From Muribaculaceae bacterium (GTDB lineage: Bacteria > Bacteroidota > Bacteroidia > Bacteroidales > Muribaculaceae): DNA of 64,000 bases. A program made the position numbers and the translations under genes. The stretch lies in the NCBI GenBank assembly GCA_017557425.1, contig JAFYYU010000004.1, positions 248,001-312,000 of the forward strand, in the 5' to 3' direction. Shown piece after piece: positions 5,982 to 58,980 of the stretch. Under the pieces are notes generated by a model that did not search any database, had not been told where the DNA came from, and saw nothing but the letters and a program-made list of their open reading frames with translations. Within the stretch, counting starts at the first letter, position 1; every line of letters begins with the position of its first letter.

Positions 5982-6017
5982 AGTTGTTTTATAATAAATA
6001 ATGAGAATTTCAGGATT

Positions 6018-6052
6018 TTTGGTTCATGCGAATAAAAATTGCATTACCTTTG
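6018..6052 (+). promoter_or_regulatory. Probable promoter of the flavodiiron-NfnAB operon
   Basis: TACCTTTG at 6045-6052 is a perfect -7 element. The nearest TTTG (6018-6021) is 23 nt upstream, slightly long. The leader would be about 55 nt. Confidence 0.5.
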
Positions 6053-6113
6053 CAAATTGTATGGATTTTAAATGAAAATGAACTATTAACCGACTATAAA
6101 CGACGACCTGACA

Positions 6114-7301
6114 ATGGCTAAAAAACTAACTGACCGAGTGACTTGGGTAGGAAAGGTGGACTGGGAACTGAAAACATTCCATGGTGACGAATTGTCCACC
6201 CACCGCGGCTCGAGTTACAACTCCTATTTGATCCGTGACAAGAAGAATGTCTTGATCGACACTTCATGGCTGCCTTACAGCCGTGAGTTCGTCAATAATC
6301 TCAAGAAAGAGATTGACCTCGACAAGATTGACTATATCGTGATGTGCCACAACGAGATTGACCACAGTGGCGCCCTCGTTGACCTCATGCGGGAAATCCC
6401 CGATACGCCCATTTATTGCACCGCTAAGGGTGAGGCAATCATCCGTGGGCATTATCATCAGGACTGGAATTTTGTCAATGTCAAGACTGGAGATAAGCTC
6501 GAACTGGGCGACACCACGCTGACGTTTATCGAGGCGACGATGTTGCACTGGCCTGACACGATGTTCTGCTACTTGAGCGAAGAGGAAATCCTGTTCAGCA
6601 ACGACGGTTTCGGTCAGCACTATGCCACCGAGTCGCTCTATGACGATCAAGTGTGCATGGCTGAGGTCTTACAGGAAGCCGAGAAATACTATGCCAATAT
6701 CATTGCACCTTTCAGCCCGTTGTGTAACCGCAAGGTGAAAGAAGTCGTTGGGATGAATTTGCCCTTGAAAATGATTTGCCCCAGCCATGGCATCATCTGG
6801 CGTAATAACCCGGGTCTGATTATCGAGAAATATCTGCAATGGAGTGATAACTATCAGGAGGATCAAGTAACCATCGTTTATGACACGATGTGGCAAAGCA
6901 CCCGACTGATGGCCCAAGCCATTGCTGAAGGCATCCGTGAGCAGTCGCCCACGACAACCGTCAAGATCTACAATGCGGCACTGAACGATAAGAACGACAT
7001 CCTCACCGAGGTGTTCCACTCGCGTGCCGTACTCGTGGGCTCTCCGACTATCAACAACGGCTACAGCTATGCCATTGCCGGCATTCTCGAGATGCTCAAG
7101 GGCATGAAGCTGAAGAAGAAAAAAGGCGCCGCATTCGGCAGCTACGGCTGGAGCGGTGAGGCCGCCAAACTCATAACCGAGCACCTCAAGGCCGCCGGAT
7201 TCGAGACGGTGAATGAAGGAATTCGAGCCCAGTGGGTTCCCGATCAGGATGCTTTGGAGCAGAGCCGCCAGTTCGGCAAGGAGTTTGCCGCTGCATTATA
7301 A
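6114..7301 (+). CDS. Flavodiiron protein (A-type flavoprotein, FprA family)
   Basis: Cytoplasmic four-electron O2 or NO reductase. The N-terminal metallo-beta-lactamase-like domain carries the di-iron ligands: H79-x-E81-x-D83-H84 in CHNEIDH, H145 in MLHWPD, D164 in SNDGFG and H225 in PSHGI. The flavodoxin-like FMN domain starts near residue 252 (TIVYDTMWQSTRLMAQAIAEG). No rubredoxin or flavin-reductase extension follows, so it must take electrons from a separate partner; the two flavoprotein genes immediately downstream are obvious candidates. Oxygen protection in an anaerobe is the likely role, inferred from the family and context. Confidence 0.95.
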   Translation: MAKKLTDRVTWVGKVDWELKTFHGDELSTHRGSSYNSYLIRDKKNVLIDTSWLPYSREFVNNLKKEIDLDKIDYIVMCHNEIDHSGALVDLMREIPDTPIYCTAKGEAIIRGHYHQDWNFVNVKTGDKLELGDTTLTFIEATMLHWPDTMFCYLSEEEILFSNDGFGQHYATESLYDDQVCMAEVLQEAEKYYANIIAPFSPLCNRKVKEVVGMNLPLKMICPSHGIIWRNNPGLIIEKYLQWSDNYQEDQVTIVYDTMWQSTRLMAQAIAEGIREQSPTTTVKIYNAALNDKNDILTEVFHSRAVLVGSPTINNGYSYAIAGILEMLKGMKLKKKKGAAFGSYGWSGEAAKLITEHLKAAGFETVNEGIRAQWVPDQDALEQSRQFGKEFAAAL

Positions 7302-7352
7302 GAATGAAAACAACAAGTACAAACTAATACAATTAACTAATTCACTGAACCA

Positions 7353-8135
7353 ATGAACAAAGTCGTTAGTAAAGAGCAGTTTTCTGCTAACGTGACCAAA
7401 CTTGTCGTTGAGGCTCCCCTCATCGCCAAGGCACGCCGTGCGGGCCACTTTGTGATTGTCCGTGCCGGCGAAAAAGGTGAACGCATTCCCCTGACCATCG
7501 CCGACAGCGACCCCAAGGCTGGTACCATCACGCTGGTTATCCAAAGTGTGGGTGACAGCACGCGCAAGATCTGCGCCCTGGAGCCTGGTGAGTACCTGAA
7601 TGACGTGGTGGGTCCCCTGGGTCAAGCCACTCATATCGAGAAATATGGCACGGTGCTTTGTGCCGGTGGTGGTGTGGGTACCGCTCCCCTGTTGCCCATC
7701 ATCCGTGCGATGAAAGAAGCTGGCAACCGCGTGATCAGCGTATTGGCTGGTCGTACCAAGGACCTCATCATCCTTGAGGACGAGGTACGCGCTTCGAGCG
7801 ATGAGACCATCATCATGACCGATGACGGCAGCTATGGCAACAAGGGTGTCGTTACCGTAGGTATGGAAGAGGTGCTCAAGCGTGAACATGTGGACTATTG
7901 CGTGACCATCGGTCCCGCCATCATGATGAAGTTCTGCGCCCTGTTGACCAAGAAGTATGAGGTGCCCACCGAGGCTTCGCTCAATGCCATCATGGTTGAC
8001 GGAACTGGCATGTGCGGCGCTTGCCGCGTGACTGTGGGCGGCAAGACACGCTTCGTGTGCGTCGAAGGTCCCGAGTTCAATGCCCATGAGATTGATTTTG
8101 ACGAGTTGATGATGCGCTTGAAAGGTGCGCAATAA
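7353..8135 (+). CDS. nfnA: FAD/NAD(P)-binding, [2Fe-2S] electron-transfer subunit (NfnA-like)
   Basis: Ferredoxin-NADP reductase-fold subunit. Residues about 1-100 form the FAD domain, 100-210 the NAD(P) domain (CAGGGVGTAPLLP), and the C-terminus has the [2Fe-2S] ligands in DGTGMCGACRVTV and FVCVEGPEF. It is 260 aa, the size of NfnA and of dihydroorotate-dehydrogenase electron-transfer subunits; pairing with the GltD-like gene 22 nt downstream favours NfnA. In NfnAB the complex couples NADH and ferredoxin oxidation to NADP+ reduction by flavin bifurcation. That biochemistry is known for other bacteria and inferred here. Confidence 0.88.
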   Translation: MNKVVSKEQFSANVTKLVVEAPLIAKARRAGHFVIVRAGEKGERIPLTIADSDPKAGTITLVIQSVGDSTRKICALEPGEYLNDVVGPLGQATHIEKYGTVLCAGGGVGTAPLLPIIRAMKEAGNRVISVLAGRTKDLIILEDEVRASSDETIIMTDDGSYGNKGVVTVGMEEVLKREHVDYCVTIGPAIMMKFCALLTKKYEVPTEASLNAIMVDGTGMCGACRVTVGGKTRFVCVEGPEFNAHEIDFDELMMRLKGAQ

Positions 8136-8157
8136 CCTATTAAATACTGAGAATACA

Positions 8158-9615
8158 ATGGAACAGAACAATATGGATTCGCGTAACGAACAATGGCGCA
8201 TTGACTTGCGTAATTCAAAGACTCCCAAAGAGCGCACCGCTATCCCCCGCGTGGAGATGCCGCAACTGGATCCCAAGTACCGCATCACCTGCAACGAGGA
8301 AGTAAATCAGGGCATCACTGCCGAGCAGGCTGTGGTTGAGGCCAGCCGTTGCTTGGACTGCGCCAACCCGCAGTGTGTGACTGGCTGCCCCGTGAACATC
8401 AATATTCCCAAATTCATCAAGAACATTGAGCGTGGTGAGTTCGGCCAAGCCGCTGCAACGCTCAAGGAGACTAGCTCGCTGCCCGCCGTGTGCGGCCGCG
8501 TTTGCCCGCAGGAGAAGCAGTGCGAGTCGCGGTGCATCCACACCAAGATGAATCACCCCGCAGTGGCCATCGGTTATCTGGAGCGCTTTGCCGCTGACTG
8601 GCAACGTGACAACCTACCCCAGGAAGTACCTGCTATGGCTCCTGCCAACGGCATCAAGGTTGCCGTCATTGGAAGTGGCCCCTCGGGATTGTCATTTGCC
8701 GGTGACATGGCCAAGAAGGGCTTCAGTGTGACGGTCTTTGAGGCTCTGCATGAGATTGGCGGTGTGTTGAAGTATGGTATTCCTGAATTCCGTCTGCCCA
8801 ACAACATCGTAGACTATGAGATTGAGGGTCTGAGGAAGATGGGCGTTGAATTTGTTAAGGACTGTCTTGTGGGTAAGACCATCAGCTACGAGGATCTGCA
8901 TGAGATGGGCTTCAAGGGCGTGTTTGTCGGCAGTGGTGCCGGTTTCCCGCGCTTCATGAACATTCCTGGCGAGAACCTGAACGGTATCATGTCCAGCAAC
9001 GAGTACCTCACTCGTATCAACCTCATGGAGGCTGGTCGCGGTGGTGATACCCCCGTGCTGCGTGGCAAGACCATCGCTGTCATTGGTGGAGGTAACACCG
9101 CTATGGACTCGACCCGCACGGCCCTGCGCATGGGTACCGAGCGTGTCATTCTCATCTATCGCCGCAGCGAGGAGGAGATGCCCGCACGTCGTGAAGAGGT
9201 AGGTCACGCCAAGGAAGAAGGCGTCGAGTTCAAGACCCTGCACAACCCCATCGAGTACATCGGTGACGAGACGGGCCGCGTGGTAGCTATGCGTGTACAG
9301 AAGATGGAACTGGGTGAGCCTGATGCTTCAGGTCGTCGCAGCCCTGTGCCTATCGAGGGCGCCATCGAAGAGATTCCCGTTGACCTGGTGGTTGTTGCTG
9401 TGGGTGTATCGCCCAATCAACTCGTTCCCCGCTCGATTCCCGGCTTGGACATCAGCAAGCGCAACACCATCGTTGTCAACGAGGAGACCATGCAATCGTC
9501 GGTGGGCGACCTCTATGCCGGTGGTGACATCGTGCGTGGCGGCGCCACGGTAATCCTTGCTATGGGCGACGGCCGCCGTGCCGCCCTCAATATGGCCAAC
9601 GCATTGCTTGGTTAA
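8158..9615 (+). CDS. nfnB: NfnB / glutamate-synthase small-subunit-like oxidoreductase
   Basis: Flavoprotein of the GltD family. N-terminal cysteines for two [4Fe-4S] clusters (CLDCANPQCVTGCP; CGRVCPQEKQCESRC) precede an FAD-binding GSGPSGLSFAGDMA motif and an NADPH-binding GGGNTAMDSTRTA motif. The ATG at 8158 is chosen; an in-frame GTG at 8125 would overlap the upstream gene and adds a non-conserved tail. No large glutamate synthase subunit is adjacent, while an NfnA-like gene is, so a transhydrogenase role is more likely than glutamate synthesis. Last gene of the operon, followed by a strong hairpin. Confidence 0.9.
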   Translation: MEQNNMDSRNEQWRIDLRNSKTPKERTAIPRVEMPQLDPKYRITCNEEVNQGITAEQAVVEASRCLDCANPQCVTGCPVNINIPKFIKNIERGEFGQAAATLKETSSLPAVCGRVCPQEKQCESRCIHTKMNHPAVAIGYLERFAADWQRDNLPQEVPAMAPANGIKVAVIGSGPSGLSFAGDMAKKGFSVTVFEALHEIGGVLKYGIPEFRLPNNIVDYEIEGLRKMGVEFVKDCLVGKTISYEDLHEMGFKGVFVGSGAGFPRFMNIPGENLNGIMSSNEYLTRINLMEAGRGGDTPVLRGKTIAVIGGGNTAMDSTRTALRMGTERVILIYRRSEEEMPARREEVGHAKEEGVEFKTLHNPIEYIGDETGRVVAMRVQKMELGEPDASGRRSPVPIEGAIEEIPVDLVVVAVGVSPNQLVPRSIPGLDISKRNTIVVNEETMQSSVGDLYAGGDIVRGGATVILAMGDGRRAALNMANALLG

Positions 9616-9644
9616 TTCTATCAGCTAGACAATAGAAGAAAGTA

Positions 9645-9683
9645 ATCGCCACGCTTCAATACTGAGGCGTGGCGATAATTTTG
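9645..9683 (+). terminator. Terminator of the flavodiiron-NfnAB operon
   Basis: Ten-bp perfect stem (ATCGCCACGC at 9645-9654 with 9667-9676), followed by AATTTT. It lies between convergent genes and may also stop minus-strand transcripts, though the T-tract is better on the plus strand. Confidence 0.75.
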
Positions 9684-9701
9684 CCGAATCAGGCAGATTT
9701 C

Positions 9702-10559
9702 TTACTTAACCATGATCTTCTTGCCATTGTGGATGTAGATGCCAGCAGGCAGATCATTTCCGTTGAATTTCTGACCCATCAGGTTGTAATAAACACCGTC
9801 CTGAGCGTTTGCAGCCTCGATTTCCTCTACGCTTGAGGGGGTATCCTCATAGGAGAAGTTGATGCGGGTAACGGGCAGTTCAACGTTGGTGCCGCAGCCC
9901 AGCATCGCGGTTGCATTGGGGAAGTCATTGCCCATAGCATAGTCAACAAAGCTGGTCCAGTTGTTGGTGTAAACCATAGCCTGGCTGCGGATGCCTGAGG
10001 TGTAGAATGGTGCATAGTCACTGCCCTCGGTGCAGTTGTCGTCATCTTGTGCGTCAAAGACTGCAGTAACGAGCAGGCCTTTACCCTTAGTGAGAGCGAA
10101 GGGTGCATTTGACAGGTCGAGCACTAACTCATAATCCTCATAGTAGAAGTCAAGCATCTCATAAACCTGAGTCTCCTGCAGGACAAGATTGTCGAATTCG
10201 AAGAACTGCTTAATGCCATCGTCATCCGTCTCAAATGCAGTAGCGTCAGTCTGCTGGAGGTAGAGCTTGATGTCACGGGTAATGTCCTCGTAAGCACCAG
10301 CATTGTTGAACTTGAACGACAACATGGTGATATTCACGTCTTTCTCGGCAATCTCGCCCAGCTCAGCGGGTGTGTAGATCATTTGAGCACCCGTGTGAGC
10401 AAGATAGAAGTTGGTGGGAGCCATGTCGAAATAGGAACCGTTGTAGGTCTCGGTAGCATTGTCAAAATCACCTACTTCAACAACGCCATAGTTTACATCG
10501 GCCTGAGCGGTAAACGTCATTGCAGCGATTGCTGCTAGAATCATGTAAAGTTTCTTCAT
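9702..10559 (-). CDS. Secreted protein with Prevotella-type C-terminal domain, function unknown
   Basis: A 285-residue exported protein. Signal peptide MKKLYMILAAIAAMTFTAQA; the acidic middle part looks like an all-beta domain but I recognise no catalytic motif. The last ~35 residues (VYYNLMGQKF...LPAGIYIHNGKKIMVK) are a short C-terminal domain common on secreted Prevotella and Muribaculaceae proteins, resembling type IX secretion sorting domains. It stands alone, with its own promoter and a ~100-nt leader. Surface or secreted location is inferred; no function is proposed. Confidence 0.85.
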   Translation of the reverse strand: MKKLYMILAAIAAMTFTAQADVNYGVVEVGDFDNATETYNGSYFDMAPTNFYLAHTGAQMIYTPAELGEIAEKDVNITMLSFKFNNAGAYEDITRDIKLYLQQTDATAFETDDDGIKQFFEFDNLVLQETQVYEMLDFYYEDYELVLDLSNAPFALTKGKGLLVTAVFDAQDDDNCTEGSDYAPFYTSGIRSQAMVYTNNWTSFVDYAMGNDFPNATAMLGCGTNVELPVTRINFSYEDTPSSVEEIEAANAQDGVYYNLMGQKFNGNDLPAGIYIHNGKKIMVK

Positions 10560-10663
10560 TGCACAAAAATTTTAATGGTTAATAAAAACAATATACTCAA
10601 ATAAAAATCTTTCGCGGCACAGGTATAAAAACCAAAGAGCAAAGGAACTCTTTATGAATGCTG

Positions 10664-10695
10664 CAAATATAAACAAAGAATCTTCATAAAACAAA
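10664..10695 (-). promoter_or_regulatory. Promoter of the secreted-protein gene
   Basis: Minus-strand TTTG (10692-10695), 20-nt spacer, TATATTTG (10664-10671). The ~100-nt leader starts with a small hairpin (AAAGAG/CTCTTT, 10634-10653), which may protect the 5' end. Confidence 0.7.
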
Positions 10696-10777
10696 CATAA
10701 GCATCAAAAAAACATGATTTTTTTAGCATCAAGCATGTTTTTGCCCGAAAGTCAAGTATAATTCTCTCATTTTTTTG

Positions 10778-10785
10778 TAGGTTTG
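10778..10785 (+). promoter_or_regulatory. -7 element upstream of the nhaC gene
   Basis: TAGGTTTG fits TAnnTTTG and lies 20 nt before the ATG at 10806. No clear -33 TTTG at the usual distance. Confidence 0.45.
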
Positions 10786-10805
10786 CAGACAAATTGAAGC
10801 AAGAT

Positions 10806-12278
10806 ATGAAGAATCCTGTAAATCCTCATCCTCTGGTAGCCATCATTCCTGTAGTGGTGCTTATTGCCTTGCTGGCCGTTGTCATTTCGTTGTTTGGAAG
10901 TGATTCGTTGAGTGGTGGCAGCCAGATAGCACTGATATTGGCCATGGCGGTTTGTGTACTCATTTCCACAGCATTCTATCATGTGCCATGGCGGGCGTTT
11001 GAGGAGCAGTTGAACAAGACGATGGGCGGTATCTTCATCACGTTGCTCATTTTGCTGTCGGTGGGTATGCTGGCAGGATCATGGATGATCAGCGGTGTCG
11101 TTCCAACCCTCATCTATTACGGTGTGCAGATTTTGTCGCCACGGTTTTTCCTGGTAAGCGCATGTCTCATCTGCGCATTGATTTCTCTGCTTTCGGGCAG
11201 TTCATGGACTACGATTGCCACCATTGGTGTGGCCTTGTTGGGCATTGGGCAGGCACTTGGGATGAGCGAAGCATGGACAGCGGGTGCCATTATTTCAGGC
11301 GCCTATTTCGGCGACAAGATGTCCCCGTTGAGCGACACGACGATATTGGCCTCGTCGGCAGCAAGGGTGGATATCTTCAAGCACATCCGTTACATGATGT
11401 ACACGACCGTTCCGACGATCACCATCACATTGATTATCTTCCTTATTGCAGGATTAGGGCTGCATAGTACGGGCACCCTTCACATCGAGGAATATACTAA
11501 GGGGCTTTCATCAACGTTCAATATTTCGGCATGGACATTACTTGTGCCTGTTGTGACAGGGGTGCTCATCGCACGGCAAGTTCCCTCCTGTATCGTATTG
11601 TTCATTTCTTCCATATTGGCCGGCGTAATGGCTCTTATCCTTCAACCGCACATCCTGTGTCAAATTGCTGATGATGCGTCATTAAGCCATGCCGCTGCCA
11701 TGGCAAAAGGCTTGGCCATTACCTTCTATGGCTCGACTGCTGTCGAGACAGGATCAGCGGCATTAAACGATTTGGTCTCGACAGGCGGTATGAAAGGCAT
11801 GCTGAATACCATTTGGCTGATTATCTGTGCCATGTGCTTCGGCGCCGCCATGGTTGCCAGTGGCATGATTTCCAGTATCACGCGTGTCATCATCCGTTGG
11901 GTACGCTCGCGTTTCACACTTGTTTCATCGACTGTGGGTACCGGTATTTTCCTGAACTTTACGACTGGAGACCAGTTCATCAGTATTGTCCTAACGGCCG
12001 ATATGTTCCGTGAAGTGTATCAACAAGAGGGCTATGAAGCGCGACTGCTGAGCCGAACGACCGAGGACGCTGCCACAGTCACATCGGTGCTTGTTCCCTG
12101 GAATACCTGCGGTATGACTCAGGCGACAGTGCTCGGGGTCCCCACCCTCACCTATCTGCCCTATTGTTTCTTCAATTACCTCAGCCCTCTGATGTCTATG
12201 TTTATTGCAGCCATCGGCTGGAAAATCAAGCGAGTTGCTTCCCAGCCGACGGAGTCTGAAGTATCTTTAGAAAACTGA
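10806..12278 (+). CDS. nhaC: Na+/H+ antiporter, NhaC family
   Basis: Inner-membrane antiporter exchanging Na+ for H+, or another NhaC-family exchange such as malate-Na+/lactate-H+. The 490 residues are almost entirely hydrophobic segments (about 11-12), with the family's conserved SGSSWTTIATIGVALLGIG and GAYFGDKMSPLSDTT motifs. Start set at ATG 10806; a TTG 12 nt upstream is in frame but less likely. It ends 8 nt from the convergent dipeptidase gene, with no room for a separate terminator. Confidence 0.93.
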   Translation: MKNPVNPHPLVAIIPVVVLIALLAVVISLFGSDSLSGGSQIALILAMAVCVLISTAFYHVPWRAFEEQLNKTMGGIFITLLILLSVGMLAGSWMISGVVPTLIYYGVQILSPRFFLVSACLICALISLLSGSSWTTIATIGVALLGIGQALGMSEAWTAGAIISGAYFGDKMSPLSDTTILASSAARVDIFKHIRYMMYTTVPTITITLIIFLIAGLGLHSTGTLHIEEYTKGLSSTFNISAWTLLVPVVTGVLIARQVPSCIVLFISSILAGVMALILQPHILCQIADDASLSHAAAMAKGLAITFYGSTAVETGSAALNDLVSTGGMKGMLNTIWLIICAMCFGAAMVASGMISSITRVIIRWVRSRFTLVSSTVGTGIFLNFTTGDQFISIVLTADMFREVYQQEGYEARLLSRTTEDAATVTSVLVPWNTCGMTQATVLGVPTLTYLPYCFFNYLSPLMSMFIAAIGWKIKRVASQPTESEVSLEN

Positions 12279-12286
12279 TTAATCTT

Positions 12287-51280: not shown

Positions 51281-52252
51281 ATGAGTATGGGCAATATCGT
51301 TAAAATCATTCGGCATGAAGATATAGTCAAGGCTGCCATTTCGCCAAAACAATGCCTGGAATGGATAGAGGAATCATTCAGCATTAAATATGAATCTGAT
51401 CTTCCGCCTAAAATCAGCCTTCATCCTCAAGGAGACGATTTTTTCAACACCATGCCGTGCCTTTTACCTAAACGATTTGGCCGTTTCTCGATGAAAGAAG
51501 TTCATCGCATAGCCGGACAAGTTCCGTCTTTGGGAAGTGACATATTGCTTTATGATTCAAGGCTGGGTAACCTTTTAGCTATTATAGACGGAGACTGGAT
51601 CACGACCATGAGAACAGGTGCGGTTGCCGCATTAGCCTCAAGGCTTCTTAAACCATCGTTTGCCCATGATTACTCATTTATCGGCTTGGGTAATACAGCC
51701 CGAGCAACCGCGTTATGCATTCTTGAAGACAATAAAGACCAGCAGATCACATTCCGTTTGCTAAAATACAAGAATCAAGCAGATCTCTTCATTGATCGTT
51801 TCAAAGATTACAGCAATCTAACGATTAAAGTGATAGATGATATTGAAACACTTGTCAAAGAATCGAATGTGCTCATATCTTGTATCACTTCGGCAGACGG
51901 CATTTTGTGCCCAAATGACAAGTTATTCAATCCCGGAATATTGCTTATTCCTGTACATACCCGAGGTTTTCAAAACTGCGACCTTTTCTTTGATAAGGTT
52001 TATGGAGATGATACTGGCCACATTCAAGGATTCAAATACTTTTCACGTTTCAAAAAGTATAATGAGCTAAGTCAAGTATTGTTAGGAAATGATCCGGGCA
52101 GAGAGAGTGATTCTGAGAGAATCATAGCCTACAACATCGGATTGGGACTTCACGACGCAGTTTTTGCTAGCCACATCTATGATTGCCTGAAGGATAAAGA
52201 TGACATTACATTCTTTATCCAAGATAAAGAAGCCTCAAAGTTTTGGTTATAA
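51281..52252 (+). CDS. Ornithine cyclodeaminase / mu-crystallin family protein
   Basis: NAD(P)-dependent enzyme, 323 aa. Rossmann motif SFIGLGNTARATAL, the family's MRTGAVAALASRLL segment, a lysine in RFSMKEVHR and aspartates in FFDKVYGDDTGH. The family includes ornithine cyclodeaminases, ketimine reductases and siderophore enzymes such as SbnB; the substrate here is unknown. The gene is more AT-rich than its neighbours. TACTTTTG at 51244-51251 is a -7 box. It converges on the fusion gene and might share its pathway, but that is only a guess. Confidence 0.87.
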   Translation: MSMGNIVKIIRHEDIVKAAISPKQCLEWIEESFSIKYESDLPPKISLHPQGDDFFNTMPCLLPKRFGRFSMKEVHRIAGQVPSLGSDILLYDSRLGNLLAIIDGDWITTMRTGAVAALASRLLKPSFAHDYSFIGLGNTARATALCILEDNKDQQITFRLLKYKNQADLFIDRFKDYSNLTIKVIDDIETLVKESNVLISCITSADGILCPNDKLFNPGILLIPVHTRGFQNCDLFFDKVYGDDTGHIQGFKYFSRFKKYNELSQVLLGNDPGRESDSERIIAYNIGLGLHDAVFASHIYDCLKDKDDITFFIQDKEASKFWL

Positions 52253-52293
52253 AACTGGGTGTGTTATCAGCAACCCTTCGCAGTTCATTTTTT
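52253..52293 (+). terminator. Hairpin between convergent genes
   Basis: AACTG (52253-52257) with CAGTT (52281-52285), extended imperfectly by GGT/ACC, then CATTTTTT. The T-run runs into the last codons of the convergent gene. Confidence 0.5.
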
Positions 52294-54112
52294 AAAGCCT
52301 TTTTAGGGCTTCCACAAGGATATCGTTATCCCGTTGGTCACGAATGGCAATTCTGATATAGTTCTTGCCCTCAAGTCCCGTCTTACTATCACAGTTCTTG
52401 ATGAGTATGTTGTAGTCCTTTAACAATAATACCGTCAGTTGGTGTGACGTGTACTTTGATATCACTTGGCATAGGAAGAAATTGGCCTGAGTTGGAATCA
52501 CACGTAGATACGGGATCAATGATAACTGTTTGGCGAAACGGTCACGTTCATTGACAAATTCTTGGCAAGCGACCTTATAGAAAGACTCATATTTGTTGAA
52601 AATCTGCATATAGAACTCTGCGAATGAGTTGATGTTCCATATAGCCACATCTTTCTTCATCTTATCAAGCAAATCAGTATTCACACCAGCGAGAACGCCC
52701 AATCTGAGTCCAGGCACACCATAGGACTTGCTGATGCTCTTCATCACAAGCAGTTGGGGATGAGTCTCCAAAATGCTATCATCCAGAAGTGAATTGGTCG
52801 GGCCATCGTCAGAAAAGTCTACAAACGATTCATCAACCAGCAAACTGATTTCACGTTCAGCACACCAGTCGGCCAATGATAAGACATCTTCTCTTGGTAT
52901 GAAATTTCCTGAAGGATTATCAGGATTAATCATCAACAATGCTTTGATATCCTTAGAGCCAAAAAATGATTTTAAATCATCGGCGGTATAATGCAAATCC
53001 TCATTGTCGGGGAAGAATGGCACGATGGCATCCTTAGTCAAGCGATTCGGATATTCTTCAAAAGTTGGATAAACTACTCCTATTTTGCTGCCATTATCCA
53101 TCAAATGACTCATCAGACTCTTAATCAACTCGGCAGCCCCATTTCCAACAACGATATATTGGCTACTGATCCCAAAATACTTGCCCGCTAACAACGAATT
53201 GATAGCCATACCGCTAGGATACTGGGTCAAAAGCACATCAAAGTTGGCACGCATTTCTTCACGCATGCGCTTGGTCGGAAAAAATGGATTGACGAGATAA
53301 CAAAAGTCCAGCATCTGCGGGAAACGCCAGTACCCTCCATACCTAATGTGATACTTGTATAACTTATCTTTTTCAGGAGAGAATATTGTCTCAGCTATAT
53401 CCTTGTCTTGAACATCATCTATCTCATACCATGGTTTATTGCCAATAGGCAAAGCCTTAAGATTAGCCTGATCAAGCAATGTTATGACCCTCAGTACCTG
53501 CTCATAATACTCATTATCACCCATTACCTTGCAGTACGCATCAAGGAAGGGAACATACACTTTGGTAGAAAACTCTTTACTGAATTTGTAAACATTCACG
53601 GTTTTATAATAAGTGTCCACCTCCGAGTACCTGAAAGCTTTTTTGGGTACAAAATTGACAATGTTATTATCCTTATCGATACGAACCATTGTTCCATCCA
53701 TCCATGTTTCATACTTAGCCACCAATGCTAAATTGGGGAACGGATCGTCAAGAATCATTTTGAAGAGGCTATCATCAAGAATCAAGTCACTCTCGATAAG
53801 CAATGTATCGTCTTCTGTCAACTTGTCTTTCACCAATGCCAGAGAATAGATATTGTTGGTCTTATCATAGATGGGGTTCATGGCATACTCTATGGTCAAA
53901 CGATCGTCATAACGGTTACCGATATGATCCATCAATTCTTGACCTTTATACCCCACTACAATCACCAAACGTGACAACTTCAACTGACACAACTGTTCCA
54001 GCATCCTATCAATAAGCCTAACGCCATTGACAGGCAACATGCACTTGGTGTTATCGCGAGTATATTTACCTAAACGACGGCCCATTCCAGCCGCTAAAAT
54101 GATTGCTTGCAT
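52292..54112 (-). CDS. Fusion of LicC-type nucleotidyltransferase and CobD/HisC-like PLP enzyme
   Basis: 606 aa, two enzymes in one chain. Residues 1 to about 235 are a sugar/choline-phosphate nucleotidyltransferase (AIILAAGMGRRLGKYTRDNTKCMLPVNG; acidic IESDLILDD). Residues about 252-606 are a class I/II aminotransferase fold: YGGYWRFPQMLDFCYLVNP, VVGNGAAELIKSL, NPDNPSG, LLVDESFVDF (D427) and PLP lysine K462 in SISKSYGVPGLRLG. These phrases resemble CobD (threonine-phosphate decarboxylase) at least as much as HisC. Inference: the second half makes a phospho-amino-alcohol and the first half activates it with CTP, for the adjacent LicD. Last gene of the glycan operon; AT-rich. Confidence 0.85.
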   Translation of the reverse strand: MQAIILAAGMGRRLGKYTRDNTKCMLPVNGVRLIDRMLEQLCQLKLSRLVIVVGYKGQELMDHIGNRYDDRLTIEYAMNPIYDKTNNIYSLALVKDKLTEDDTLLIESDLILDDSLFKMILDDPFPNLALVAKYETWMDGTMVRIDKDNNIVNFVPKKAFRYSEVDTYYKTVNVYKFSKEFSTKVYVPFLDAYCKVMGDNEYYEQVLRVITLLDQANLKALPIGNKPWYEIDDVQDKDIAETIFSPEKDKLYKYHIRYGGYWRFPQMLDFCYLVNPFFPTKRMREEMRANFDVLLTQYPSGMAINSLLAGKYFGISSQYIVVGNGAAELIKSLMSHLMDNGSKIGVVYPTFEEYPNRLTKDAIVPFFPDNEDLHYTADDLKSFFGSKDIKALLMINPDNPSGNFIPREDVLSLADWCAEREISLLVDESFVDFSDDGPTNSLLDDSILETHPQLLVMKSISKSYGVPGLRLGVLAGVNTDLLDKMKKDVAIWNINSFAEFYMQIFNKYESFYKVACQEFVNERDRFAKQLSLIPYLRVIPTQANFFLCQVISKYTSHQLTVLLLKDYNILIKNCDSKTGLEGKNYIRIAIRDQRDNDILVEALKRL

Positions 54113-54143
54113 ATGAAGTTAATCTATCATGAGTAAAAACGAG

Positions 54144-54953
54144 TTAATCGAAGAATTCCAGACGCTTGACATGGTGATTAACGTTGTCGAGGTCAGCAGG
54201 TAGTTGCATATAATCGCCAAACATCGTCTGTAACATATTATGGCTATTGCCAGGTACAGGGAGTTGAACGCCCTCGAAATCGTGGGTTGTCAGGTGGACG
54301 ATATCGTTCAAATTATAGATGTTGTGAAACGGAATTCCATAGTCGCACATGAGGGCTTTGGTGCCACTTAATCGGCTGATGCCGCGAAGCAGCGGGAATG
54401 AAACATGACGATTGAACCAAGTCAAAGCTCTTATTTTCCTCATTGCCGAAACACTGGCACCACCCTTGCGAAAAAAGTTATAAGCAAGACTTTGGAAACG
54501 TAACTTCTGAGTCCAAGGCAAAAGCCTGTCCAAAGGAAAGATGTCAATGAAGACACCCCGTTCCTTGAAAACACTGTCGAAACCACCCTCATCGAGAAAA
54601 GAGCGCTTATCTCTCAGTTTACCGACAAAAAAGAAGTAATTCTTGTCGGTATCGTTTGTCTGGAGAACGATGTGCTCAGGCAACTCATCCGGCAAGACCT
54701 TTAATAACCGCTTATAATCGTTACGCAACATCGCCACATCCAAATCATCGTCCCATGGAATAAATCCATTGTGACGAATTGCGCCCAGCAAAGTACCGCC
54801 ATAGAGGAAGTAAGGTATATCGTACTTTTTGCAGATTGAATCAAGTACTTTTACCATCTCCAACATGACCATCTGTTGACGACGCAACGGAGAACCTTCA
54901 GGGTTGAATCTGGCCCTTAGTTCTTCCTGATTGAATGTAGGATTGGTGTTCAT
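54144..54953 (-). CDS. LicD-family phosphotransferase
   Basis: 269 aa; LicD proteins transfer phosphocholine or a similar group from a CDP-carrier to surface glycans. Typical core: FLYGGTLLGAIRHNGFIPWDDDLDVAM with D68-D69-D70-x-D72. No membrane segment, so it acts on the cytoplasmic side before export. ATG 54953 chosen; an in-frame TTG upstream is unlikely. 15 nt after galE and 31 nt before the fusion gene. AT-rich like the fusion gene. Confidence 0.93.
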   Translation of the reverse strand: MNTNPTFNQEELRARFNPEGSPLRRQQMVMLEMVKVLDSICKKYDIPYFLYGGTLLGAIRHNGFIPWDDDLDVAMLRNDYKRLLKVLPDELPEHIVLQTNDTDKNYFFFVGKLRDKRSFLDEGGFDSVFKERGVFIDIFPLDRLLPWTQKLRFQSLAYNFFRKGGASVSAMRKIRALTWFNRHVSFPLLRGISRLSGTKALMCDYGIPFHNIYNLNDIVHLTTHDFEGVQLPVPGNSHNMLQTMFGDYMQLPADLDNVNHHVKRLEFFD

Positions 54954-54968
54954 TCTGAATAATATCAA

Positions 54969-56003
54969 TTACATGATGCCGCGCTCGCGGAGGCGTTTTT
55001 GCCAGTTCCAGGCGCTGAGCATGGTGTCGTCGAGGGATATCTCGGCATGCCAGCCCAGGACTTCGTTGGCGCGCTTGGGATCAGCCCATATTTGGACGAT
55101 GTCACCGGCACGGCGCGGTGCAATCTTGTGAGGCACCTTCACACCAGTGGCACGCTCAAACGAGTGCAGCAATTCGAGCACCGAGGCACCGTTACCTGTA
55201 CCGATATTGAAAATCTCGAGTGATTCTTCGCTCTTGTCTTCCAGCATCCGCTCCAAGGCCTTGACGTGGGCCTTGGCCAAGTCAACGACATTGATGAAGT
55301 CGCGGATACACGAGCCGTCGCGTGTAGGATAGTCGTCGCCGAAGATGCTCAACTCCTTGCGCACGCCGATGGCGGTCTGTGTCAGATAAGGCACGAGATT
55401 CTGGGGTACACCGTTGGGTAACTCGCCGATTTCGGCACTGGGATGGGCACCGATGGGATTGAAGTAGCGCAACAGGATGGCCTTGATGGGACTGCCGCTG
55501 CGGATAACATCGGTGATGATGTCCTCACAAATCTGCTTGGTGGCACCGTAGGGCGAGGTGGCCTTCTTGGTGGGCGCGTCCTCAGTAATGGGGTTCTTGT
55601 CGGGTTCGCCATAAACCGTGCACGAGGAAGAGAACACAAAGCCCTTCACGCCGAACTCGGGCATCAGGTCCAGCAGATTGAGCAGAATGTTGATATTGTT
55701 GCGGTAGTACATGATGGGCTTCTCGATGCTCTCGCCCACAGCCTTGCTGGCCGCGAAGTTGATGATTCCGCTGATGCCGGGATTGTCCTCGAACAACTTG
55801 CGCACGACAGCCCGGTCGGTGCAGTCCCCCTTGACAAACACAGGGCGCACGCCAGTGATGCGCTCGATACCGTCCAGCACATCGATGTTACTGTTGCTCA
55901 AGTCATCAATGATGACCACCTCGTAACCTGCCTGTTGCAATTCAACCGTGGTGTGTGAACCGATGAACCCGGTTCCGCCAGTCACTAATATTTTACCTTT
56001 CAT
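54969..56003 (-). CDS. galE: UDP-glucose 4-epimerase
   Basis: NAD-dependent SDR enzyme interconverting UDP-Glc and UDP-Gal (often the N-acetyl forms too). 344 aa; NAD motif TGGTGFIGS, catalytic Ser in SSSCTVYG and YxxxK in SPYGATKQ. It is GC-richer than licD, its downstream neighbour. Supplies galactose units for the surface glycan. 11 nt after the flippase gene. Confidence 0.97.
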   Translation of the reverse strand: MKGKILVTGGTGFIGSHTTVELQQAGYEVVIIDDLSNSNIDVLDGIERITGVRPVFVKGDCTDRAVVRKLFEDNPGISGIINFAASKAVGESIEKPIMYYRNNINILLNLLDLMPEFGVKGFVFSSSCTVYGEPDKNPITEDAPTKKATSPYGATKQICEDIITDVIRSGSPIKAILLRYFNPIGAHPSAEIGELPNGVPQNLVPYLTQTAIGVRKELSIFGDDYPTRDGSCIRDFINVVDLAKAHVKALERMLEDKSEESLEIFNIGTGNGASVLELLHSFERATGVKVPHKIAPRRAGDIVQIWADPKRANEVLGWHAEISLDDTMLSAWNWQKRLRERGIM

Positions 56004-56014
56004 TGTAATAGTAT

Positions 56015-57490
56015 TTATAATGTTGTTGATTTTGATTTCTTAGAACGGATAAACTCGATACATTCCTCAAGGATTCGCGCGCGCAGCAGTTTCATCACCA
56101 TAAAATAGAGTGCAGCAGCGAGTAGCAGGCGTGACGCCAACAGCATCCACATGTTGCTGATGTACAGGGTGACAAAATAGGTCAAAGCCATCACAGCCAA
56201 TGCAATTCCCATGAACGGCAACAGGTCACGCAACATCGTCAGGAATCGGTAACCAATGAGCCGATAGGCAAACACCTGCCATGCCAATAGCCAAAAGATA
56301 TTGATGCAGGCAAAAGCAATGACCATCGCCTTGATGCCCAAGGAATGACAAGCAAGCACGGCGATGAGCATGACAGCAATCTGGCCTATTGTGAGCCACA
56401 TGTAGGTGCCTGATTTACCTTGACTCAAAAACAGATTCTGATAAATTGTGTACAGGGGAATGAAGGCTCCGCTGACGCACAGGATCTGCAGCAACGGTAT
56501 GCTGTCGATCCACTTGTCGCCGATGGCCAACAAGATGACCTGAGGCGCCACCAGCGCCAAGCCGAACAACGCGGGAAACGACAGGAATGCCGTGAAACGC
56601 AACATCTTGCCAAAAATGCGGCGCTGACGCTCGTTGTTGTCTGTAACACGGGTGAGCACTGGCTGAGCCACCTGGGCTACCGTATTGGTCACCAACTGAT
56701 TGGCCATTGTGTTCCACTTATTCGCCTGGGTGAAGTTACCCACTGACTGGGCAGGAAACAAGCGGCCGAAAATGACCGTCAACACATTGTTGTTGATTGT
56801 AGTCAATACTGCCGTTATCAGCACCTTGTAGCTGAACGAGAACATCTGCTTCACAGGGGTGAAATCCACCTTGAAAGTAGGACACCATTTTGTATAATAG
56901 AAACGACCTATACTGATGACCACATTATATAACACTTGCTGTGTCGCAAGGCTCCAATAAGAAAAACCTTTGAAAGCCATTATCACTCCCACTGTGCCCG
57001 AGATGACCAATGCCGAAAGCGAGGTAATCGCTTTCTCCTTCATCTTCAGGCTCCTCACAAGCATCGCATTGGGCGAAATGCCTACCGCAGCAAATATGAT
57101 TGCCAAGAAAACAAACCTTGACAACGAGACGAGACATGGCTGATGGAAAAACGCGGCTATCAACGGCGCGCACAGGAACAGTATTAAGTACAGGAGCAAA
57201 CTCATGGCGATGTTGAACCAGAACACCGCATTATAATCGTTGTGCTTGATGTCCTTGATGTTGACCAGTGCTACGCCAAAGCCGCTCTCCTGCAGGTTAT
57301 TAGCCAATAGGGTGAAAATGGCCAGCATGCCTACGATGCCGTACTCTCCAGGCGATAGCAGGCGTGCCAGGAAAATACCGATAATCAGGTTGAGCAACTG
57401 CATGCCGCCGCTGCTCAGAAAACCCCAGAACAAACCCTGGGCCGTTTTCTGCTTCAAATTCTGATTATCGACACCCTCGTTGATCATCAC
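56015..57490 (-). CDS. Polysaccharide flippase (Wzx/MOP superfamily)
   Basis: Multi-helix membrane protein of 491 aa, likely flipping lipid-linked oligosaccharides to the periplasm. About 12-14 hydrophobic segments; the N-terminal KTAQGLFWGFLSSGGMQLLNLIIGIFLARLLSPGEYGI stretch is characteristic of WzxC-like proteins. The start overlaps the phosphatase stop by 4 bp. No polymerase (Wzy) gene lies in this cluster. Confidence 0.93.
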   Translation of the reverse strand: MMINEGVDNQNLKQKTAQGLFWGFLSSGGMQLLNLIIGIFLARLLSPGEYGIVGMLAIFTLLANNLQESGFGVALVNIKDIKHNDYNAVFWFNIAMSLLLYLILFLCAPLIAAFFHQPCLVSLSRFVFLAIIFAAVGISPNAMLVRSLKMKEKAITSLSALVISGTVGVIMAFKGFSYWSLATQQVLYNVVISIGRFYYTKWCPTFKVDFTPVKQMFSFSYKVLITAVLTTINNNVLTVIFGRLFPAQSVGNFTQANKWNTMANQLVTNTVAQVAQPVLTRVTDNNERQRRIFGKMLRFTAFLSFPALFGLALVAPQVILLAIGDKWIDSIPLLQILCVSGAFIPLYTIYQNLFLSQGKSGTYMWLTIGQIAVMLIAVLACHSLGIKAMVIAFACINIFWLLAWQVFAYRLIGYRFLTMLRDLLPFMGIALAVMALTYFVTLYISNMWMLLASRLLLAAALYFMVMKLLRARILEECIEFIRSKKSKSTTL

Positions 57491-57987
57491 TCACCCAAAA
57501 TCTGGTCGATCCACTCGCGCACACAGGCATCACCGCCCCGGCGCTCAAGAACATGTATGCCAGATATGGCCTTGACCTTGTCGCAGGCATCGGCAGGACA
57601 AGCCGCCCACCCCACAGCCGCGAGCAGGTCGTAACAGTTGACGTCATCGCCCACGTAGGCAACCTCTTTCAGAGTGATACCCATCTCATCACAAATCTCT
57701 TGCGTTGCAGCCAACTTGCCGCCGTCGCGGGCACTCTGCTTGAGGTAGTCAAGGCCAAGTTTACGGGCACGGTTCACATTGATGGGTGTATTCTCGCTCG
57801 TGATGATGCCCACCTTTACGCCCGTGCGCTGGAGCATTTGCAGGCCCATGCCGTCACGTGTGTTGAATTTCTTGAATTCGGTGCCGTCGGTGCCGTAGTA
57901 CATTCCGCCGTCGGTAAGCGTTCCATCCACGTCAGTGAGGAAAAGACGGATGTCGGCTGGAGTCGGTATCTGTTGATCGGTATTCAT
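57487..57987 (-). CDS. KdsC-like HAD phosphatase
   Basis: 166 aa, cap-less C0-type HAD hydrolase of the KDO-8-phosphate phosphatase family. Nucleophile motif FLTDVDGTLTDGGMYY, GIITSEN, the lysine in SARDGGKLAA, and VAYVGDDVNCYDLL. KdsC dephosphorylates KDO-8-P for lipopolysaccharide; relatives act on other sugar acids. The site in a surface-glycan operon fits either. 3 nt after the GT2 gene. Confidence 0.9.
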   Translation of the reverse strand: MNTDQQIPTPADIRLFLTDVDGTLTDGGMYYGTDGTEFKKFNTRDGMGLQMLQRTGVKVGIITSENTPINVNRARKLGLDYLKQSARDGGKLAATQEICDEMGITLKEVAYVGDDVNCYDLLAAVGWAACPADACDKVKAISGIHVLERRGGDACVREWIDQILGE

Positions 57988-57990
57988 CGT

Positions 57991-58938
57991 TTATTTCAGG
58001 TATTTCTCGATGTTGTAACGGGGACGGTGTTTATCCTCGGTATAGATACGGCCGATGTAGGCAGCAATGATACTCAGGCAAATGAGGACACAACCGCCCA
58101 CAAACCAGATGGACAACATTAGCGACGCCCAACCTTGCACCCCATTACCCTTGCACAGTGCCACAATGACATAGACTAAAATGGCAAGACTGATAAACAG
58201 GAATATGACGCCCAGGTCAAAGATCAGGCGTAAGGGCTTGACACTGAATGAGGTGATGCCATCGACGGCAAAGGACAACATCTTGCTCAACGGGTATTTA
58301 CTCACTCCCGCCTGGCGCTCCAACCGGTCGTAATAGACCGAATCGGTCTTATAGCCCAACAACGGCACAAGTCCACGCAGGAACAGGTTGCGCTCCTCAT
58401 ACTGGCACAGCGCGTCAACAGCCCGTTGGCTCATCAGCCTGAAATCGGCATGGTTATAGATCGACTTCACGCCCATTCCAGTCATGAATTTATAGAACAT
58501 CTGAGCCGTAGTGCGCTTGAAGAACGTGTCGGTCGTGCGTTTGCGGCGCACACCGTAAACGATATCGCAGCCGTCGTTATACTTTTTCACCATCTCGGGG
58601 ATGGCGTTGATATCGTCTTGCAGGTCTGCATCGATCGAGACAGTCACATCAGCATCCTCACGAGCGGTTTCCAGGCCAGCCATGAGGGCATTCTGGTGAC
58701 CCACATTGCCGGCCAGCTTGAGGCCGCGCACGTGGGCATCACCAGTGCCATAGGACTCAATGAGCTGCCATGTGCGGTCGCGGGAGCCATCGTTCACATA
58801 GAGTATGTAACTCCCCTCGCCCACCAACTTCTCGCGCATCATGCCATCCAGTAATGCACGTAACTGCTGGTTGGTCTGTGGCAACACTTCCTCCTCGTTG
58901 TAGCAAGGCACCACTATCGCTAAAACAGAATTTTCCAT
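57991..58938 (-). CDS. Glycosyltransferase family 2, GtrB/ArnC-like
   Basis: 315 aa. GT2 catalytic domain (IVVPCYNEEEVLPQ; VNDGSRDRTW; metal-binding SIDADLQDD) followed by two C-terminal helices (about residues 228-255 and 268-292). Such proteins load a sugar onto polyprenyl phosphate for use on the outer face. First gene of the six-gene minus-strand operon. ATG 58938; a GTG upstream is in frame but unlikely. Confidence 0.93.
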   Translation of the reverse strand: MENSVLAIVVPCYNEEEVLPQTNQQLRALLDGMMREKLVGEGSYILYVNDGSRDRTWQLIESYGTGDAHVRGLKLAGNVGHQNALMAGLETAREDADVTVSIDADLQDDINAIPEMVKKYNDGCDIVYGVRRKRTTDTFFKRTTAQMFYKFMTGMGVKSIYNHADFRLMSQRAVDALCQYEERNLFLRGLVPLLGYKTDSVYYDRLERQAGVSKYPLSKMLSFAVDGITSFSVKPLRLIFDLGVIFLFISLAILVYVIVALCKGNGVQGWASLMLSIWFVGGCVLICLSIIAAYIGRIYTEDKHRPRYNIEKYLK

Positions 58939-58980
58939 ATCACACGTAATTATCACGGGGAACCATTATTCCCCAAATTG

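Follow-up and report, generated by a model that had tools for sequence, protein, structure and literature searches.

A nucleotidyltransferase-PLP fusion gene beside licD in a Muribaculaceae genome is linked to two repeatedly exchanged reductases and may supply an opine-type CDP-ethanolamine surface tag

The window analyzed here is a 64,000-nucleotide stretch of a Muribaculaceae contig (JAFYYU010000004.1, assembly GCA_017557425.1) that contains the following genes, the last-listed being the first gene of a tight minus-strand run:

51281..52252, plus strand: OCD/mu-crystallin-family NAD(P)H reductase, convergent with the fusion (PF02423, 86.7 bits, E 1.9e-24, cut-off 24)
52292..54112, minus strand: nucleotidyltransferase (NTase)-PLP fusion of 606 aa with an ATG start (NTase at residues 1-~240, CobD-like PLP domain at ~253-606)
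54144..54968, minus strand: LicD-family phosphotransferase with a DDDLD motif (PF04991, 142.6 bits, cut-off 22.6)
54969..56003, minus strand: GalE-like UDP-sugar 4-epimerase in the same run (NCBIfam TIGR01179, 398.4 bits, above cut-off)
56015..57490, minus strand: Wzx-type flippase, nearest to an O-glycosylation flippase model (NF058658, 657 bits, under the cut-off of 720)
57487..57987, minus strand: KdsC / KDN-9-phosphatase-like HAD phosphatase (NF058599, 162.1 bits, cut-off 180; TIGR01670, 117.7 bits, above cut-off)
57991..58956, minus strand: family 2 glycosyltransferase (PF00535, E 3.2e-24)

The ORF and its Pfam domains agree with the first-pass annotation, which had described one NTase and PLP fusion protein next to a LicD with DDDLD; that motif is present, as are the CobD-like phrases quoted for the 606-residue protein. 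The span it gave covered the fusion and LicD, both of which stand, but did not extend to the OCD gene that converges on the fusion. For LicD, the ORF begins with a TTG (54968), and an in-frame ATG at 54953, the one used in the first-pass annotation, is the likely start.

Pfam assigns the N-terminal half of the fusion to NTP_transferase (residues 3-120, E 2.2e-10) and the C-terminal half to Aminotran_1_2 (residues 311-603, E 2.1e-34). The ORF is not a chance reading frame, since it has 307 relatives in genome contigs (the best 80 of the 307 being 63-86% identical), R13, K23, E107, and K462 are invariant across 28 aligned fusion rows, and comparison with the relative at locus L008 gave a dN of 0.107 at saturated dS. 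The fusion occurred in 45 of 198 genomes of a family sample and in 8 of 198 genomes of an order sample, two of these 8 also belonging to the family sample; a phylum sample of 395 genomes held one distant full fusion (G143) besides that of the window, and single domains only in 14 genomes. Our literature search, which mostly covered papers outside subscription journals, returned no account of this NTase-PLP fusion, or of its link to octopine-dehydrogenase (ODH) or OCD reductases, among the matches listed.

The N-terminal half had been called LicC-like, and its top two PDB matches are LicC (1jyk) and PntC (6pd1). R13 and K23 align with Tde-PntC residues R15 and K25; changing these to alanine left less than 10% of activity, according to a passage of the PntC study (PMC6697681). 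E107 aligns with Tde-PntC Glu104, placed in another passage at the primary amine and replaced by Asp in LicC (PMC6697681), a comparison that covers one of two amine-facing acidic residues (the other being E196 / D192). Models of sugar-1-phosphate NTases also match this half, every one far below its cut-off. These results support a LicC/PntC-type nucleotidyltransferase, predicted to use CTP.

The best PDB match of the PLP domain is 6oux (E 1.7e-41), which we take to be SMUL_1544, a serine-phosphate decarboxylase; 3ftb and CobD (1lc5) follow. The phylogeny against CobD and HisC that the first-pass annotation had proposed does not place the domain within HisC: the PLP domain and 6oux share one side of a 100/99 branch, and HisC and canonical CobD lie opposite, including 38 HisC-type rows of the first PLP tree as well as 1lc5 with Bacteroidota CobD-like rows. 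That first tree omitted 5 of 69 rows (faulty ORFs and a duplicate of the window), and the second combined 28 chosen rows of the first with 8 added ones. K462, named as the PLP lysine in the first-pass annotation, aligns with CobD K216, the PLP lysine of that enzyme, and N399, D427, R470, and R587 align with CobD N157, D185, R224, and R337; all five are common to HisC too. S429 and K577 are common to 6oux and absent from HisC, and W492 is CobD-like, unlike HisC. Two annotations were tried and rejected, with the trees also against both: canonical CobD (threonine-phosphate decarboxylase, TIGR01140), at 180.6 bits below a cut-off of 290.55, and histidinol-phosphate aminotransferase (TIGR01141), at 141.9 bits against 276.55. 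Five CobD-like rows from Bacteroidota accompanied 1lc5 in the comparison, and these too score below the TIGR01140 cut-off, at 240-266 bits. A decarboxylase-type PLP domain, neither HisC nor canonical CobD, is supported by these sequence comparisons, and the grouping with 6oux would favor phosphoserine over phosphothreonine, provided that 6oux is a serine-phosphate decarboxylase.

A PLP domain that uses threonine phosphate or another phospho-amino acid would instead lead to CDP-1-amino-2-propanol or similar, with the remaining steps as proposed below. Although CobD is the best NCBIfam model for the domain, this seems unlikely given the sub-threshold score, the position with 6oux across the 100/99 branch from CobD, and a Pfam and NCBIfam scan of seven window proteins that turned up no cobamide gene. 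Less probable again is an aminotransferase, converting for example dihydroxyacetone phosphate to serinol phosphate, in which case the tag would be serinol or another amino-polyol phosphate. Cj1437 forms serinol phosphate in a similar locus, as stated in part of one report (PMC12409886), and PntC is described as fused to an aminotransferase in part of another (PMC6697681), but the 6oux grouping and the CobD-type residues set our domain apart from HisC-type aminotransferases, in trees that were built without Cj1437. The case named in the first-pass annotation as refuting its scheme, a HisC-like aminotransferase or a nucleotidyltransferase for sugar phosphates, here taken as the two together, would suit the generic Pfam names of both halves and the weak sugar-1-phosphate NTase matches; the branch separating the HisC-type rows and the rank of LicC and PntC as top PDB matches make it highly improbable.

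The window's OCD gene occupies the place taken by an ODH domain or gene in relatives, is under purifying selection, and appears to belong to the fusion's system. Downstream of the fusion, an ODH homologue was present at 57 of 79 loci, an OCD homologue at 19 (window included), and neither at 3; these rows comprise the window and 78 of the best 80 of the 307 loci, with L034 (fusion split over two ORFs, ODH after) and L045 (contig end) omitted. Reductase labels were checked by blastx on DNA, that of the window's OCD gene being assigned by hand. One locus with an ODH partner, L075, is that of the cultivable Prevotella ruminicola KHT3. Among the best 80 of 307 relatives, a triple NTase-PLP-ODH fusion occurs in 8 loci, which are near relatives of the window, and ODH is fused to LicD in 2. 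On the tree of 76 labelled fusions, the partner changed between ODH and OCD at least 14 times, the window's close relatives included.

This linkage extends to whole genomes. A reductase was found in 43 of the 45 family-sample genomes with the fusion versus 1 of the 153 without it, a count that includes two OCD matches weaker than the others (238 bits in G533, 280 bits in G548) and excludes two ODH-like matches of lower score (110 bits in G473; a second copy at 166 bits in G454). The order sample gave 6 of 8 fusion genomes versus 0 of 190 others. Twelve of 51 strong reductase copies lie more than 2.5 kb from a fusion or on another contig, and 11 of these 12 are in fusion-bearing genomes. One genome (G559) carries an ODH without the fusion; a hidden variant fusion beside it was considered and rejected, the neighbor turning out to be a citrate-type transporter. 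The genome that the window comes from is 85% complete; searches found no ODH in it, and the OCD gene is there instead. OCD and ODH stand in tandem after the fusion in three genomes (G453, G485, G579), so the two reductases may not be equivalent. Domain composition, gene linkage, co-occurrence, fusions, and repeated swapping are shown by the genomes themselves.

All five ODH partners scanned match PF02317 (102.0-121.8 bits, cut-off 30), and ODH relatives match octopine dehydrogenase 3c7a with E 1.3e-35 (9.4e-31 when the fused domain is compared). All 17 rows aligned keep residues H194, D301, and R296, which align with His212, Asp329, and Arg324 of octopine dehydrogenase; we take the Asp of its dyad to be number 329. 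The positions of T143 and Q118, presumably functional in octopine dehydrogenase, are occupied in the ODH clade by Arg and by Ser or Asn, respectively, so that its substrates are probably other than arginine and pyruvate. The homology to the Pecten enzyme, whose His-Asp dyad and Arg324 are described in part of the structural study (3c7a; PMC2924402), is full-length, with those three residues kept; unlike that enzyme, the ODH partners have T143 and Q118 replaced and are either part of a CDP-alcohol enzyme or its neighbor. An alignment that combined triple and double fusions with lone ODH proteins was discarded because the lone ODH rows were only 22-26% identical to an ODH-containing row and so had seemingly been set against the wrong domain; many alignment rows were short of one end residue, with the residues discussed here unaffected. 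The text of a paper on opine-like zincophores (PMC7438024) contains none of the terms Bacteroid, Prevotella, LicD, and ornithine cyclodeaminase.

Among OCD relatives of solved structure are pyrroline-carboxylate and iminosuccinate reductases, mu-crystallin, and alanine dehydrogenase (1omo, 1vll). Some relatives are cyclodeaminases, which counts against the condensation proposed below. The alanine dehydrogenases and iminosuccinate reductases raise the alternative that the reductase makes an amino acid for the PLP domain from a 2-keto acid and ammonia, but we consider this quite improbable: the enzyme that replaces OCD in relatives belongs to the octopine dehydrogenases, members of which take an organic amine and not ammonia, and ordinary serine synthesis already yields phosphoserine.

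A plain phosphoethanolamine product, as in the first-pass scheme, with ODH or OCD acting in some other step or on a different sugar of these loci, is rather unlikely; exceptions to the linkage speak for it. Seven fusions stand without a reductase: none lies within the 1,400 bases tested after the fusion at L058, L063, and L079, and none was found in genome-wide searches of G449, G576 (fusion at a contig end), G690, and G738. LicD adjoins the reductase-less fusion in L058, L079, G449, and G690. In two further genomes (G640, G678), split NTase and PLP genes adjoin a CDP-alcohol phosphotransferase (Pfam), with no ODH or OCD at E 1e-60. The nearest solved relative of the G640 phosphotransferase is phosphatidylserine synthase; the CDP-alcohol motif was missed by a pattern scan and by eye has one gap of 12 residues, compared with the 8-9 that we take to be usual. 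These neighbors support a predicted role in lipid head-group chemistry, short of proof for CDP-ethanolamine use. Against plain phosphoethanolamine stand the fusions of the reductase to NTase-PLP (8 loci) and to LicD (2 loci), the 43/45 against 1/153 co-occurrence, and the 11 reductase copies retained in fusion genomes at a distance from the fusion.

The CDP-amino-alcohol route put forward in the first-pass annotation is supported by the LicC/PntC-like NTase, the decarboxylase-type PLP domain, and the adjoining LicD, and since the PLP domain groups with 6oux, the route likely yields CDP-ethanolamine or something closely related. That LicD and the fusion make up the whole pathway, as the first-pass annotation took them to do, is not supported: an ODH or OCD reductase nearly always accompanies the fusion, and a tag of phosphoethanolamine with a further addition is therefore probable. 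The best explanation, to which we give roughly even credence, is a route from phosphoserine to CDP-ethanolamine, with a keto acid added by the reductase and LicD transfer to a surface glycan. The PLP domain would decarboxylate L-serine-O-phosphate to ethanolamine phosphate (a close analogue such as threonine phosphate being less likely), and the NTase domain of the same chain would convert this with CTP to CDP-ethanolamine. A separate reductase (OCD here, ODH in many relatives) would act on ethanolamine phosphate or CDP-ethanolamine, join its primary amine to a 2-keto acid, for which pyruvate is a first guess, and reduce the imine to an N-(1-carboxyalkyl)ethanolamine unit, as in opine chemistry. 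LicD would then move the phosphate-linked unit onto a glycan built by the Wzx/GT2/GalE genes of the run. We infer every substrate, the step order, the keto acid, and the acceptor glycan. Somewhat more tentatively, we suggest an opine-type tailoring in which CDP-ethanolamine from phosphoserine becomes CDP-N-(1-carboxyalkyl)ethanolamine for LicD by way of either unrelated reductase; the swap at one site is so frequent that ODH and OCD cassettes may be alternative versions, perhaps with different stereoisomers or keto-acid arms, that switch a surface epitope.

Phosphatidyl-N-(2-hydroxyethyl)alanine occurs in rumen protozoa, and our literature search gave no match for it among the matches listed. 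With pyruvate as the keto acid and R as the configuration of the new center, the expected substituent would be N-[(R)-1-carboxyethyl]ethanolamine phosphate, which we take to belong to Proteus (O14). A figure legend lists this compound for Klebsiella capsules and Proteus mirabilis O-polysaccharides together (PMC9630907); it is thus known as a structure, and the portion of that text available describes no biosynthesis. The first step has a precedent in Cj1436, which decarboxylates serine phosphate to ethanolamine phosphate and is encoded in a capsule locus, according to part of the report on it (PMC12409886). Arguing against the proposed tag, the O-glycan of P. intermedia, one Prevotella case in which the glycan alone was compared, carries HPO3-C6H12O5 and not an amino-alcohol in the relevant part of its description (PMC10897501).

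Several known systems resemble the proposed one in part. The Tde-PntC/AEPT fusion (6pd1) also has a LicC-type cytidylyltransferase N-terminal to a PLP enzyme; its neighborhoods include LicD-like genes, and it serves a CMP-linked amino-alkyl surface tag, as outlined in passages of PMC6697681. Its PLP half, however, is an aminoethylphosphonate transaminase ('aminotransferase, class V' in the PDB list), whereas ours is class I/II and CobD-like, and the tag of the window system would be a phosphate ester. The lic system is similar to what we propose in that a phospho-amino-alcohol is activated with CTP and LicD attaches it to glycans of the surface, and its choline is imported and acted on by a kinase; in the window system an amino acid would instead be the source of the alcohol, and the pathway comes with a reductase. 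Cj1436 of Campylobacter jejuni shares the conversion of serine phosphate to ethanolamine phosphate proposed here, a likeness by description and not by sequence (PMC12409886, in part), and SMUL_1544 of Sulfurospirillum is presented in part of PMC4585668 as a distant CobD homologue that might make ethanolamine phosphate. Unlike the window fusion, both are separate enzymes, and their ethanolamine phosphate goes, in the passages concerned, to a capsule-sugar amide or norpseudo-B12 and not to CDP-ethanolamine (PMC12409886, PMC4585668).

Annotation by the nearest models calls for caution, since it would label these proteins CobD or histidinol-phosphate aminotransferase, octopine dehydrogenase, and ornithine cyclodeaminase, and their roles are likely different from all of these. 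If the proposed route is correct, these genes would form a set that carries an intermediate of central amino-acid metabolism through to a CDP-activated tag on the surface. They would also be a candidate pathway for N-carboxyalkyl-ethanolamine phosphate, which is known as a substituent of polysaccharides. Two unrelated reductases that repeatedly take each other's place at a single site would represent either a clean non-homologous replacement or a chemical switch on the cell surface.

The first-pass annotation had reported a nucleotidyltransferase-PLP fusion beside LicD, which the gene run and domain composition bear out. Both genes are real and belong to a tight run on the minus strand (58956 to 52292) of GT2, a KdsC-like phosphatase, a Wzx flippase, GalE, LicD and the fusion, a 606-aa protein that starts with a nucleotidyltransferase and ends in a class I/II PLP domain. 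The accompanying interpretation, a one-operon CDP-amino-alcohol surface tag made from phosphoserine or phosphothreonine, is partly supported, by the architecture and the placement of both halves, but was incomplete, having left out a reductase partner. In the window this partner belongs to the OCD/mu-crystallin family (hereafter OCD):

51281-52252, plus strand: OCD/mu-crystallin-family gene, convergent with the fusion gene, the gene ends 39 bases apart

Reductases beside the fusion were surveyed by blastx over ~1,400 bases 3' of it in 78 usable loci from the best 80 of 307, a non-random sample weighted by likeness to the protein of the window; L034, whose fusion lies in two ORFs, and L045, at a contig end, were left out. 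Together with the window (79 rows), an octopine-dehydrogenase homologue (ODH) lies downstream in 57 rows and OCD in 19, window included, and neither was found in three (L058, L063, L079). Among these best 80 of 307 loci, separate same-strand reductase genes overlap the fusion stop codon in the ATGA manner in 32/47 cases for ODH and 3/13 for OCD, while OCD is convergent with the fusion in five loci and the window. In eight loci, all near relatives of the window (L001, L003, L005, L006, L007, L009, L011, L012), ODH is the third domain of a 943-953-aa triple fusion, and in L032 and L042 it is joined to LicD. At L034 (4902-7854), an ODH gene of 336 aa follows the two fusion ORFs.

The association extends to whole genomes. 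Among 198 genomes of the window's family (ODH and OCD counted at E 1e-30), 45 carry the fusion, 22 a strong ODH and 25 OCD. Eighteen fusion genomes have ODH only, 22 OCD only and three both; two (G449 and G576, the latter with its fusion at a contig end) have neither at E 1e-30. The 153 fusion-free genomes yielded ODH once (G559, 84% complete) and OCD never (Fisher p 6e-40, uncorrected for kinship). Weaker ODH-like matches in G473 (110 bits) and G454 (a second match, 166 bits) were kept out of this count. The counted reductase copies number 51: 39 are no more than 2.5 kb from a fusion, and the other 12 are farther off or on a different contig, 11 of them in fusion-bearing genomes. In the genome from which the window comes (85% complete), OCD is present and ODH was not found. 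Among 198 genomes of the order (E 1e-60), ODH or OCD is present in six of the eight with the full fusion (four of six without G000 and G416, common to both samples) versus 0/190 others. The two fusion genomes with no ODH or OCD at E 1e-60 are G690, where LicD adjoins the fusion, and G738.

The best NCBIfam models for the PLP half were CobD (180.6 bits, cut-off 290.55) and hisC (141.9 bits, cut-off 276.55), and neither cut-off was passed. Its best solved relative is 6oux, a 'threonine phosphate decarboxylase-like enzyme' (E 1.7e-41) that we take to be SMUL_1544 of Sulfurospirillum. Set against CobD and HisC, as the first-pass annotation had proposed, the domain groups with 6oux, outside the HisC-type rows, on a 100/99 branch in both trees. 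In the 64-row tree this branch parts the fusion rows, 6oux, the lone protein G192 and G143 (a distant fusion from another class, on a long branch of uncertain exact position) from 38 HisC-type rows and the CobD rows, and the split recurred in a second tree, built from 36 selected rows that included additional relatives. Ser429 and Lys577 are common to 6oux and absent from HisC, Lys577 also from six CobD rows; Arg591 is common to 6oux and 1lc5, Trp492 is as in CobD, and K462 aligns with K216 of CobD. SMUL_1544 has been described as a remote homologue of CobD, possibly producing ethanolamine phosphate (PMC4585668), and Cj1436, from a capsule locus, decarboxylates serine phosphate to ethanolamine phosphate (PMC12409886). 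From the trees, the residues and these two papers, we infer that phosphoserine decarboxylation would be the likeliest reaction of the PLP half.

Relatives of the PLP domain also occur in other settings. The G192 protein, which pairs with 6oux in the trees, directly adjoins a HAD phosphatase gene (L158 8096-9912), and lone relatives in three genomes adjoin a class-I amidotransferase (Peptidase_C26) gene (L167 7075-8896, L168 6459-8299, L169 6277-8201). The G738 fusion (L164 7682-9421) is 69% identical to the window's in its nucleotidyltransferase half and only 41% in its PLP half; this divergence, in a genome where neither reductase was found at E 1e-60, possibly reflects a change of substrate.

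The two top solved relatives of the nucleotidyltransferase half are LicC (1jyk, E 1.2e-11) and PntC (6pd1, E 5.2e-10). Arg13 and Lys23, invariant across 28 aligned fusions, correspond in the alignment to Arg15 and Lys25 of Tde-PntC, where substitution by alanine leaves <10% activity (PMC6697681). The likewise invariant Glu107 matches Glu104 of Tde-PntC in the alignment, and Glu104 is one of a pair of glutamates near the substrate's primary amine; in LicC this position is taken by the smaller Asp, perhaps leaving space for choline (PMC6697681). This one aligned residue favours a primary-amine alcohol over choline as the putative substrate.

The ODH partners match octopine dehydrogenase over their full length (3c7a, E 1.3e-35; fused domain 9.4e-31), and all five scanned pass PF02317. 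Residues aligned with His212, Arg324 and Asp329 (presumably the relay Asp) are kept in 17/17 ODH rows. At T143 and Q118, which we take to be positions with known roles, the aligned residues are replaced by Arg and by Ser or Asn, respectively, so the partners' substrates probably differ from those of octopine dehydrogenase. That enzyme condenses arginine and pyruvate with NADH; a His-Asp pair relays protons and Arg324 senses NADH (PMC2924402). The solved relatives of OCD include pyrroline-carboxylate reductase, mu-crystallin, thiomorpholine-carboxylate dehydrogenase, alanine dehydrogenase, iminosuccinate reductase and cyclodeaminases, and its NCBIfam matches include an SbnB-type dehydrogenase. 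Both families carry out NAD(P)H-dependent C=N chemistry. Because the amine at hand is the PLP domain's product, the simplest joint function would be N-carboxyalkylation of ethanolamine phosphate or CDP-ethanolamine by the reductase, with a keto acid as co-substrate. N-[(R)-1-carboxyethyl]ethanolamine phosphate belongs to Proteus. It is named in the legend of a figure that covers the capsules of Klebsiella and the O-polysaccharides of P. mirabilis (PMC9630907).

The reductases have been swapped repeatedly. The 79-row fusion tree requires at least 14 ODH/OCD interchanges (the three rows with neither uncounted), and well-supported branches alone force at least 10 OCD changes. Shuffled labels gave a mean of 17.5 OCD changes, with 7/500 as low as 14; the spread of labels is thus close to random scatter. 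The window's 14-row clade mixes both states, the triple fusion L001 groups with L002 and L004, both carrying OCD (support 89), and L010 (OCD) pairs with L011 (triple fusion; support 96). Exchange is local, since DNA homology between L009 or L011 and L010 restarts just past the exchanged stretch on the rpsP side. Purifying selection acts on OCD (window versus L008: dN 0.134, dS saturated). Three genomes carry fusion, OCD and ODH in one run (L152 in G453, 5296-9076; L153 in G485, 8432-12285; L154 in G579, 4962-8783); these tandem operons are either replacement intermediates or a sign that the two reductases perform different steps, and they speak against simple ODH/OCD equivalence.

Two genomes (G640, G678), without ODH or OCD at E 1e-60, have adjacent unfused genes for the nucleotidyltransferase (36-37% identity) and the PLP protein (32%), and after these comes a CDP-alcohol phosphotransferase gene (for G640, the enzyme's nearest solved relative is phosphatidylserine synthase):

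L165, 6622-9506: unfused nucleotidyltransferase and PLP genes by the CDP-alcohol phosphotransferase gene
L166, 1922-4486: the same arrangement

This arrangement fits, and does not prove, a role for the pair in CDP-alcohol or lipid head-group chemistry, and the split form may perhaps be a phospholipid head-group version of the fusion's route.

Among the best 80 of 307 loci, some of them short, 62 contain LicD-like genes and 43 a Wzx sharing at least 38% identity with that of the window; the window's Wzx is nearest to an O-glycosylation flippase model, below its cut-off. Bacteroidota O-glycans carry phosphate, amino or other groups in rare cases (PMC12871550), and the P. intermedia O-glycan has a different phosphate substituent (PMC10897501). 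The literature matches listed contain no description of a nucleotidyltransferase-PLP-reductase system. We infer a pathway in which serine phosphate would lead to CDP-ethanolamine, an opine-type step would add a keto acid, and the product would pass to a surface acceptor. This would be a novel version of CDP-alcohol surface tailoring, extended by an opine-type reaction as its third step.
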